DNA from: a virus | DNA: 30,384 nt | Strand: one strand, 5' to 3' | Virus record (IMG/VR): IMGVR_UViG_3300034071_002646 | Location: 1-30,384 of that record | In this document: positions 12,191-14,377 of the stretch, piece by piece | How positions within the stretch are numbered: the stretch's first letter is position 1 | Layout of the letters: each line of letters opens with the position of its first letter | The notes under the pieces: generated by a model | What the model saw: only the letters and a program-made list of their open reading frames with translations | Databases searched by the model: none | Told to the model about the DNA's origin: nothing | Made by a program: the position numbers and the translations under genes

Positions 12191-12441
12191 TCTGCGACCT
12201 CTCTATTGAAGCCTTGTTCCGTTTCTCGCGCCTGTCCAAGCGTAAATCGCTCGCTGCCATCAACATTGTCGGACTCCGCTCCGAACACCTCGAACCCTTT
12301 GTCGCCAAAGGTTGGCTCACCAAAAGCGTCAACCCAGCCTATGCCGACAATCGGGAACACGCACCGCTCTACGAAATCACCGACGCCGGACTCGCCGGCG
12401 TCACCCAAATCACCTCGCTCGTGCAACAGCTCCTCGCGTAA
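12187..12441 (+). CDS. Second small winged-helix-like protein
   Basis: An 84-residue protein starting at the ATG that overlaps the previous stop. IEALFRFSRLSKRKSLAAIN, then GLRSEHLEPFVAKGWLTKS and the wing-like YEITDAGLAGVTQI resemble a MarR/PadR-type winged helix. The ITDAGLAGV segment is the typical wing-to-helix step of that fold. Its coupling to the preceding gene suggests the two act together. No specific family name can be assigned. Confidence 0.55.
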   Translation: MICDLSIEALFRFSRLSKRKSLAAINIVGLRSEHLEPFVAKGWLTKSVNPAYADNREHAPLYEITDAGLAGVTQITSLVQQLLA

Positions 12442-12474
12442 TCCAGGAAAGCAGCCTCAACGTCCCACGCCCCC

Positions 12475-13113
12475 ATGCCCGCCATCTTCAACCACGACGA
12501 CCAACGCCGTCACCGCCTTTTCAACGGCCGCCAGATCGATCCCACCCGCCGCGCCGCCAAGGCCGGCATCCCCCACTACGCCCGCCGCAACAGCAGCCGC
12601 GTCCTCATGCCGGACGACTTCATCCCCATCGGCCCCCACGCCGGCAAGCACCTCCACAGAGTCCCTCCCGATTACCTTCTCTGGGTCAACGCCCAGCCCT
12701 GGAGCAAGTGCTGGGTCCAATGGCAACCCATCGCCGACTACATCTCCCGCTTCCTCATCGACGCTTCTGACTCCGATCCAGCATCCAGCATCCAGCATCC
12801 AGCAACGAGCCTCATCTACACCGACCGCCTGCAAATCTGGCCCACCGAGCGCAAATGCTTTAAAGACGGCTCCAGCCACCTCCACTGCCTCCCCGGCTGG
12901 GAAGACTACCTCCACACCTTCGCCCTCGGTGCTCTCGCGCTCGATCCCCGATGGTATCAAAACAAACTCCTGCCCCACTACGACCTCACCGTCCGCAAGC
13001 ACAAGCTCGCCCTCGAATGCGGAGCCATCGAGATCCCCGACACCAAACTTCGCGACCACACCCACCTCTGGAAAAAGTTCCGCCAAACCCCGCCCCCCAA
13101 GCTCCCACTCTAA
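12475..13113 (+). CDS. DUF3820-like protein
   Basis: A 212-residue protein. Residues about 43-72 (MPDDFIPIGPHAGKHLHRVP and DYLLWVNAQPW) match the compact 'fGkxxGkplxxvPxdYLxWl' motif of DUF3820, found in phage proteins and next to some exonuclease domains. The remainder is unassigned: a YTDRLQIWPTERKCFKDG segment and a basic C-terminus. A CATCCAG array interrupts it (DPASSIQHPATS, 12776-12803). Function unknown; a nucleic-acid role is suggested by the family's neighbours, not by anything here. Confidence 0.6.
   Translation: MPAIFNHDDQRRHRLFNGRQIDPTRRAAKAGIPHYARRNSSRVLMPDDFIPIGPHAGKHLHRVPPDYLLWVNAQPWSKCWVQWQPIADYISRFLIDASDSDPASSIQHPATSLIYTDRLQIWPTERKCFKDGSSHLHCLPGWEDYLHTFALGALALDPRWYQNKLLPHYDLTVRKHKLALECGAIEIPDTKLRDHTHLWKKFRQTPPPKLPL
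12776..12803 (+). repeat. CATCCAG tandem repeat, copy 3 (coding)
   Basis: Nearly perfect 7-base units (ATCCAG, CATCCAG, CATCCAG, CATCCAG) lie in frame within the DUF3820-like gene. Confidence 0.8.
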
Positions 13114-13116
13114 CCC

Positions 13117-13147
13117 GTCACTCCGGTCAATACCGTCAATCCTGTCC
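13117..13147 (+). repeat. Tandem 9-bp GTCAATCCG-type repeat, copy 8
   Basis: GTCACTCCG, GTCAATACC, GTCAATCCT and GTCC at 9-base spacing, intergenic, between the DUF3820-like gene and the methyltransferase. Four bases after the previous stop. Confidence 0.75.
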
Positions 13148-13177
13148 ATACACCCGCCCCCCATGATCCGCTAAGTC

Positions 13178-14377
13178 ATGAACTACTACAATGAGCACGA
13201 CCCCAAAGCCGCCGCGTGGCTCCGCGAACTCATCGCGCAAAACCTTATCCCTGCTGGAGAGGTTGACGAACGCTCCATCATCGCCGTCTCACCCGGAGAC
13301 TTGCAACACTACACCCAGTGCCACTTCTTCGCCGGCATCGGCGGCTGGAGCCTCGCTCTGCAACTCGCAGGCTGGCCAGCAACTCGACCTGTGGGCACCG
13401 GCTCCTGCCCCTGCCAGCCATTCAGCGCCGCCGGCAAAGGCCTCGGAGAAGACGACGAGCGCCACCTCTGGCCCGTCTTCTTCCACCTCATCCGCGATTG
13501 TAGGAACCTCGGCCAGCCATGGGCTTTCACAGTCTTTGGCGAGCAAGTTGCAAACGCGATTGGCAAAGGCTGGCTCGATGGAGTATCGGCAGACCTGGAG
13601 TCCGAAGGCTACGCCTGCGGGGCGGTCGTATTGGGCGCACACAGCGTCGGCGCTCCCCATATCAGACAGCGGCTCTACTGGCTGGCCGACTCCCAACGCC
13701 CACGACGGGAGGCGTCCGGGCTGCGACCTGAAATCGACACAGGGCGGCAACTTGAGCAGGGACGCCCATCTAGCGGGCTGGCCGACGCCACAGGCGCACG
13801 ATGTGACGGGACGCTCCGAGACGCAGAAGGAAAAACACGGGACGAAACACGGCTGCTCCTGCCTGGTGCTGGCGGCGAAACTGGCGGGCTGGCCGACACC
13901 GGTAGCGAACGACGACAACAAATCCCCCGAAGCACATCTAGCGATGAAAACTCGAATGGGACATCGGGATGGATCGAATGCGAACAGAACGGCAATCACC
14001 AGCCTCCAAGTGATGGTGAAAACAATCACCGGATAGGTGAGCCCAACAGCCACGGACGGCGAAAGGGGATCATTGCCACCCAGGCCGCAGGACACGGGGA
14101 TACCCTTGAGCCAGCAATTTTCTGGGCTGACTCCCGCCTCATCCTCTGCCGAGACGGCAAACACCGCCGCATTCCAACTGAACCCGCGATTTTCCCTCTG
14201 GCTGATGGGCTTCCCTACAAGCTGGCACGACGCCGGAGTATCCGCCCTGCGCTCCTTCGAGGCGCAGGCAACGCCATCGTCCCGCAAGACGCTGCCGTCT
14301 TCATCCAAGCCTACCTCGACGCCCAGGAAACTACTCACCTAGATCCCGCAGCATCGTCAGCAGATCCCGGCGTGTGA
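13178..14377 (+). CDS. DNA cytosine-5 methyltransferase
   Basis: A 399-residue protein with the ordered C5-methyltransferase motifs: CHFFAGIGGWSLALQLAGW (48-66, SAM site), GSCPCQPFSAAGKG (75-88, nucleophile Cys79), FGEQV (120-124, in place of ENV), HIRQRLYWLAD (161-171) and near the end GAGNAIVPQ (362-370). Residues about 172-310 form the variable target region with repeated GLAD steps. It would methylate cytosines in phage DNA, probably against restriction. The DNA of the target region also encodes a recognisable protein in the next frame (separate entry). The 3' end overlaps the convergent gene at 14331 by 47 bases. No Shine-Dalgarno; a GTCAA array precedes the gene. Confidence 0.85.
   Translation: MNYYNEHDPKAAAWLRELIAQNLIPAGEVDERSIIAVSPGDLQHYTQCHFFAGIGGWSLALQLAGWPATRPVGTGSCPCQPFSAAGKGLGEDDERHLWPVFFHLIRDCRNLGQPWAFTVFGEQVANAIGKGWLDGVSADLESEGYACGAVVLGAHSVGAPHIRQRLYWLADSQRPRREASGLRPEIDTGRQLEQGRPSSGLADATGARCDGTLRDAEGKTRDETRLLLPGAGGETGGLADTGSERRQQIPRSTSSDENSNGTSGWIECEQNGNHQPPSDGENNHRIGEPNSHGRRKGIIATQAAGHGDTLEPAIFWADSRLILCRDGKHRRIPTEPAIFPLADGLPYKLARRRSIRPALLRGAGNAIVPQDAAVFIQAYLDAQETTHLDPAASSADPGV
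13191..14342 (+). other. Second protein-like frame inside the methyltransferase gene, with one amber codon
   Basis: In the +1 frame relative to the methyltransferase, 13191-14033 and 14037-14339 are open, separated only by TAG 14034-14036. From about 13535 the translation reads LASKLQTRLAKAGSMEYRQT, then TPAGRSYWAHTASALPISDS, three GWPTP steps (GWPTPNAHDG, GWPTPQAHDV, GWPTPVANDD), NRTAITSLQVMVK and, after the TAG, QLNPRFSLWLMGFPTSWHD and EAQATPSSRK. These are hallmarks of a phage/bacterial family I know as methylase-associated proteins or C-terminal parts. The GWPTP steps use the same CTGGCCGAC repeats that give LAD in the methyltransferase. Either dual coding or a decayed overlap. Confidence 0.5.

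Follow-up and report, generated by a model that had tools for sequence, protein, structure and literature searches.

A conserved gene nested in the +1 frame of phage C5 cytosine methyltransferases and its probable role in target recognition

The locus and its two reading frames

The question raised by this locus is whether one stretch of phage DNA encodes a DNA methyltransferase in one frame and a second conserved protein in the next and, if so, what the second protein contributes. The window, that is, the whole stretch analysed, is a virus record of 30,384 bases, and the anti-repressor, replication initiation, integrase, terminase and head genes present in it identify a temperate phage. A gene of the DHH phosphoesterase family is found upstream in this phage (10519-11796, + strand; phrog_4771 6.3e-39). 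The ORF immediately upstream of the locus (12206-13174) and a minus-strand ORF of 349 aa opposite to it (13289-14338) gave no family match.

Frame 0 consists of a single ORF of 399 aa ending in GAGNAIVPQ. The preliminary description took it for a complete C5 cytosine methyltransferase. Profile comparison supports the assignment to this family, with a PF00145 score of 45.3 bits above the curated cut-off of 22; as judged from its sequence, the protein is a methyltransferase of phage type. Motifs I, IV (PC), VIII and X are all located on this one chain:

13178-14377, + strand: frame-0 ORF, C5 cytosine methyltransferase (MTase), catalytic chain with motifs I-VIII and X (PF00145 1e-11, phrog_363 6.4e-68)
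13328-13345, + strand: motif I, FAGIGG, frame 0 (sequence)
13409-13426, + strand: motif IV, PCQPFS, frame 0, with the catalytic Cys (sequence)
13658-13675, + strand: motif VIII, HIRQRL, frame 0, used as anchor of the rate analysis (sequence)
14267-14287, + strand: motif X, GNAIVPQ, frame 0, downstream of which conservation is in frame 0 only (sequence, mismatch rates)

The structure predicted for the frame-0 chain of a homologue shows the MTase fold and matches M.HhaI with E=2.2e-8. The model is confident over most of residues 1-170; at about residues 171-235, before the motif X helix, pLDDT is about 43-55. These residues lie opposite the stretch where only the +1 frame is conserved. A target recognition domain (TRD) and a motif IX between motifs VIII and X, as in the monomeric type of enzyme, are not found in frame 0, which is unconserved there.

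The +1 frame over the same DNA contains the peptides SLASKLQTRLAKAGSMEYRQTW, TPAGRSYWAHTASALP, three GWPTPx(A/V)(H/N)D units, NRTAITSLQVMVK and QLNPRFSLWLMGFPTSW with ATPSSRK, all translated exactly as first reported, as well as the single TAG that had been noticed at 14034-14036. The suggestion that they belong to a separate recognisable family also holds. Both parts of the frame match phrog_1008, a described but uncharacterised family; when the TAG is read through, the gene matches as one stretch with 4.4e-30, and the same profile is matched by 93/93 homologous +1 proteins. PHROGs alone recognise the +1 protein, as comparison with Pfam, NCBIfam, PADLOC and PDB gave no match, and an HNH motif was looked for in the +1 frame of the window and not found. 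The +1 features are the following:

13191-14036, + strand: +1-frame ORF of 281 aa, the nested gene, closed by the TAG (phrog_1008 3.1e-24)
14037-14342, + strand: remainder of the +1 gene past the TAG, including the motif-IX-like segment (phrog_1008 1.4e-5)
13533-13640, + strand: helix and beta-hairpin segment SLASKLQTRL...MEYRQTW...TPAGRSYWAH, DNA conserved in both frames (homologue model, dual rates)
13680-13706, + strand: unit 1, GWPTPNAHD, read LADSQ.. in frame 0 (sequence)
13776-13802, + strand: unit 2, GWPTPQAHD (sequence)
13887-13913, + strand: unit 3, GWPTPVAND (sequence)
14031-14057, + strand: fourth unit, G*VSPTATD, missed by the preliminary description, with the TAG at the Trp position (homologue L063, GWCSPTATD)
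13694-14068, + strand, approximate: region with only the +1 frame conserved (motif VIII plus 6 codons to motif X minus 66), frame 0 being a stop-free passenger (mismatch rates, stop counts)
14178-14225, + strand: motif-IX-like segment LNPRFSLWLMGFPTSW (profile match to motif IX of actinophage MTases, where it is read in frame)

The predicted structure of a homologous +1 protein reaches confidence only towards the N-terminus, in a helix (31-52) and a hairpin (strands 58-66 and 72-80) with pLDDT about 75-95, the remainder being of low confidence.

Selection and initiation in the second frame

The comparison covered about 270 distinct homologues, drawn from several clades of phages with GC contents of 0.41-0.71. 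They comprise 121 loci found via the frame-0 protein, relatives close to the epsilon15 gene, loci found via the +1 protein alone, a Firmicute-type clade and an actinophage/freshwater clade. The loci were gathered by similarity from few queries, and the shuffles and pair counts given below leave some shared ancestry. In the window itself the +1 run of 284 codons, against 223 expected from codon-shuffled versions of the gene (P=0.20), is not exceptional; the case for dual coding is carried by the homologues and not by the window copy alone. Across the family the +1 frame is open over nearly its whole length. For 100 distinct genes, the mean of the longest +1 run was 309 codons against 156 expected when synonymous codons were shuffled within each gene, while 119 neighbouring ORFs, taken as control, gave 87 against 87. 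The excess persists at low GC, as in one gene of GC 0.41 (L332) with a +1 ORF of 423 codons. The +1 ORFs end mostly around motif X.

Openness is not restricted to the +1 frame. When +1-synonymous codons were shuffled in 137 genes, 263 frame-0 stops were expected in the middle region and none was seen; the third frame had 597 stops against 569.5 expected. Since these 137 genes had been preselected for reaching motif X, every locus with motif VIII was counted too, and frame 0 was open to motif X in 202 of 210 distinct loci, or 207 if GNG/SNA variants are allowed.

The frame under selection was identified by counting the mismatches between homologues at each frame-0 codon position. Where frame 0 is coding, its third position evolves fastest; where the +1 frame is coding, the fastest position is the first of frame 0, which is the third of the +1 codon. 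From the start to just past PCQPFS the rates at positions 1, 2 and 3 were 0.126, 0.106 and 0.377, hence frame 0 is constrained. In the middle, from motif VIII to the CRDGK segment, the pattern is inverted (0.273, 0.106 and 0.120), and downstream of motif X frame 0 is constrained again (0.065, 0.056 and 0.328). Sliding windows along the gene pass from frame 0 to dual, to +1, to dual and back to frame 0. In a set of 71 pairs in which each sequence was used once, to limit shared ancestry, the middle accumulated 875 changes at position 1 versus 143 at position 3, with position 1 exceeding position 3 in 53/53 informative pairs, and in the tail position 3 exceeded position 1 in 45/47. The middle pattern was repeated within the actinophage clade (19/21) and the Firmicute-type clade (6/6). 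Comparison of the window with its relatives gave 0.459, 0.110 and 0.106 in the middle, so that here, as in the homologues, the constraint lies on the +1 frame.

Selection therefore acts on both frames, on +1 alone in the middle and on frame 0 alone towards either end. Conservation of motifs I-IV and X is confined to frame 0, and the stretches between them and the +1-only region are dual. Since changes in the middle are concentrated at the first position of frame-0 codons, it is solely the +1 protein that is preserved there, and the proposal that the target region itself codes in both frames has to be amended: dual coding stands, with the dual parts on either side of that region. Likewise, the repeats said to give LAD in one frame and GWPTP in the other do have both readings, GWPTP being a unit of the +1 protein and LAD its shadow. 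With excess constraint in the +1 frame (53/53 pairs), the homologues are not the stop-ridden, unconstrained shadows that would have spoken against the idea, and the MTase/+1 gene family almost certainly represents genuine dual coding. The notion that the +1 frame is an in-silico shadow, in which GC-rich codon use produces open runs and look-alikes such as GWPTP from GLADA, has practically no chance of being correct. GGC CTG GCC GAC GCC does read GWPTP in +1 and the window alone would be compatible with it, but the position-specific rates and the shuffles refute it, the runs stay well above shuffles even at the lowest GC, neighbouring genes show no such effect, and internal starts with Shine-Dalgarno (SD) sequences are conserved.

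These starts differ by clade. Among the homologues, +1 stops are common over the initial 30-40 codons of the MTase and absent further on; they cease at internal start codons preceded by SD sequences. In the enterobacterial-type genes the start is an ATG inside 'DERSIEDV' with AAAGGAG or CGGAG upstream; a start codon with an SD at -42 from PCQP was found in 84/162 genes, compared with 5.7% in shuffles. Genes of the actinophage clade encode the Asp of DERHLWP by GAT, which supplies a +1 ATG, in 73/73 cases (background 0.44), all of them with an SD-like core. Strong SDs immediately follow the last +1 stop in two further genes, L315, where SD and ATG come directly past that stop, and L126 of Paenibacillus phage Shelly, annotated as 'g55 internal gene', where GGAGG precedes the ATG. 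The subclade of the window is arranged differently, its +1 frame being open from codon 1. Here 26/32 genes encode the Asn of YYNE by AAT, which creates a +1 ATG (background 0.42), as opposed to AAC in 119/128 genes whose +1 frame is closed upstream. From this pattern the +1 gene of the window probably starts at the ATG at 13191, which has no clear SD, rather than at 13535, where the feature had first been placed.

The conserved internal starts and SDs point to independent initiation and not to frameshifting. A single polypeptide, made by ribosomes that pass from frame 0 to +1 before the recognition region and return before motif X, would restore the canonical order VIII-TRD-IX-X from constrained parts. 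Nevertheless, this is very improbable, because the flanks are constrained in both frames and thus need ribosomes in both, the SD-equipped starts would be superfluous, and frame 0 is kept free of stops across the middle. Programmed frameshifting would further imply a second frame devoid of its own start, and homologues do have SD-equipped ones. The amber or frameshift product first envisaged is accordingly not required: with conserved internal starts frameshifting is unneeded, and the TAG, which homologues lack, lies outside the system.

A probable recognition chain

In C5 MTases the large domain comprises motifs I-VIII and X, and the small domain the variable region and motif IX (PMC3404938). 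The +1-only stretch is placed where the TRD belongs, and LNPxxxxWLMGFPxxW comes next to it. The actinophage counterpart of this segment, LNPKFVEYMMGLPVGWVTD, is read in frame 0 and lies immediately before motif X. Motif IX is thus in frame 0 in loci L340-L419 of the actinophage/freshwater clade (e.g. L402, L369), and its counterpart is in +1 in the proteobacterial and Firmicute-type clades. The actinophage in-frame segment aligns colinearly with residues 273-310 of M.HhaI, an alignment that is weak on its own, and a profile comparison of this in-frame motif IX with the +1 segment gave Prob 95.5 and E=1.5e-8 (one comparison). Motif IX appears, as far as the motifs tell, to have changed frame during evolution. 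Since the actinophage +1 ORF ends upstream of motif IX, the division of labour between the chains would not be uniform.

The middle region is, moreover, exchanged between close relatives. Among gene pairs whose sequences before motif VIII share 93% identity or more, it was unalignable in 469/1439, and two genes that are 99.2% identical there (L008 and L065) have middles that cannot be aligned. Such swapping of the +1-only stretch is what one expects of a specificity determinant. As Pfam, NCBIfam and PDB offer no match for the +1 protein and most of its model is of low confidence, the argument for recognition is built on where the stretch lies, on its resemblance to motif IX and on the exchange of domains, and on these grounds the +1 protein is probably the small domain, or DNA recognition subunit, of the MTase.

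A real +1 protein with some function apart from methylation, such as anti-restriction or regulation, housed in the MTase gene by chance, is unlikely. It would agree with the protein having no recognised domain. However, its +1-only conserved part sits where frame 0 misses the TRD and motif IX, a motif IX match is present and the stretch is swapped in cassette fashion; in addition, no free-standing relatives were found, all 79 loci retrieved with the +1 protein alone overlapping an MTase in the same register (79/79).

The arrangement is likely to be that of a two-polypeptide MTase in the manner of M.EcoHK31I, with a catalytic large domain in frame 0 and a recognition small domain in +1. Frame 0 would yield the large catalytic domain with motifs I-VIII and X, and the nested gene, from its own internal start, the small DNA-recognition domain, made in the clade of the window of GWPTPxxxD-type target recognition units plus motif IX. 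The two chains would assemble into one enzyme methylating the phage DNA, and this methylation would protect it. Frame 0 opposite the recognition units would be an unstructured passenger, kept stop-free so that ribosomes get to motif X. With somewhat less assurance, we favour the wider reading that these genes form a large, ancient and widespread class of phage MTases whose catalytic and target-recognition domains are written in two frames. The recognition frame would then be swapped as a cassette to change specificity, the catalytic frame would merely remain open across it, and the annotated frame-0 'variable region' would be a non-functional shadow.

Few long nested genes are on record from prokaryotes and phages; such cases are disputed and tend to be young. 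The family described here is deep and present in many copies, with selection in both frames and conserved starts, and would therefore serve as a benchmark for overlap detection. The results also suggest that the search for the recognition region in MTases of this class has so far been directed at the wrong frame; the sequence specificity of these phage MTases would become predictable once the right protein is used.

The amber codon of this copy and related systems

The TAG splits the +1 frame of the window into 13191-14036 and 14037-14342. At this site the homologue L063 has TGG (Trp), so that its GWCSPTATD corresponds to G*VSPTATD, and a GTG lies directly 3' of the TAG. Among YYNE-type copies that have no HNH insert, a +1 stop in the middle occurs only in the window and in L136, where it is a TGA. 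The TAG looks, from this comparison, like a rare nonsense change from TGG that lies outside the system; the change may be recent, the site may serve re-initiation, or the codon may reflect an error of sequencing. The +1 gene may still work, through re-initiation at the adjacent GTG or suppression of the TAG, or it may be lost. That the +1 gene of the window is a fossil killed by the TAG, its MTase being inactive or working without the +1 product, is a serious prospect whose chances we put a little short of even. The confinement of the stop to two such copies and the TGG of the homologue favour it, but the rest of the frame is still conserved in comparison with relatives, the GTG adjoins the TAG, and an error is possible in a single virus record.

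The gene of the small chain of M.EcoHK31I lies inside that of the large chain, in another frame. M.EcoHK31I (YGGCCR) is a natural two-polypeptide C5 MTase (PMC3404938, PMC3439449) with motifs I-VIII and X on the larger chain, motif IX on the smaller and a predicted TRD assigned to the larger (PMC3404938). The claim that no such system had been described is therefore partly wrong, as two-polypeptide C5 MTases with motif IX on the smaller chain were known; a literature search found no description of the nested MTase/+1 arrangement as a family. By its motifs the present system resembles M.EcoHK31I, having I-VIII and X in frame 0 and the motif-IX-like LNPxxxxWLMGFPxxW in +1. It differs in that the recognition region is conserved in +1 only and, set against the description of M.EcoHK31I, in that the genes are phage orphan MTases of many clades. 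Three plasmid copies, inspected for a neighbouring restriction enzyme that would link them to M.EcoHK31I, all lay in phage-like contexts, and none had such an enzyme annotated nearby. M.AquI (CYCGRG) is also made of two polypeptides, with motifs IX and X both on the small chain (PMC3404938); catalytic and recognition chains are separate in both systems, whereas here motif X belongs to frame 0, the catalytic chain. The monomeric M.HhaI and M.HaeIII share the fold and motifs of the frame-0 chain, but here the small domain (TRD plus IX) is not in the same frame.

In annotation databases either frame goes under the name 'DNA methyltransferase', and as a rule just one of the two is retained. The +1 proteins are members of phrog_1008 and phrog_31772, whose label 'DNA methyltransferase' is presumably inherited from the overlapping gene and is silent on their other-frame status. 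Most public records annotate one frame only; both are annotated as DNA methyltransferase in Xanthomonas phage PhiXhv-28 (L128) and in phage Shelly (gp55/gp56).

Another protein is known from the second frame of phage methylase genes, the ShiLan domain, an out-of-frame HNH endonuclease (PMC11855218). As with ShiLan, a second protein occupies the other frame of a phage C5 MTase gene and the MTase frame is kept open; ShiLan, however, is a mobile element of sporadic occurrence, whereas the +1 gene accompanies the MTase in all homologues and does not encode an HNH protein. HNH endonuclease ORFs resembling the published ShiLan domain were observed in other phages and at other positions, in the same +1 register and with the MTase frame open. 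In L040, L072, L087, L127 and L293 they are inserted ahead of motif X, following the WLMGxP segment or the late part of the +1 gene, and in L037 before motif VIII. Across these inserts (L040, L072, L087, L127, L293 and L037) the MTase frame has 0, 0, 0, 1, 0 and 0 stops against 12.2, 3.6, 4.8, 6.0, 7.1 and 6.3 expected, respectively. In L040 the WLMGLPxEW segment before motif X is duplicated and flanks the HNH ORF, as if the insert had brought its own flank.
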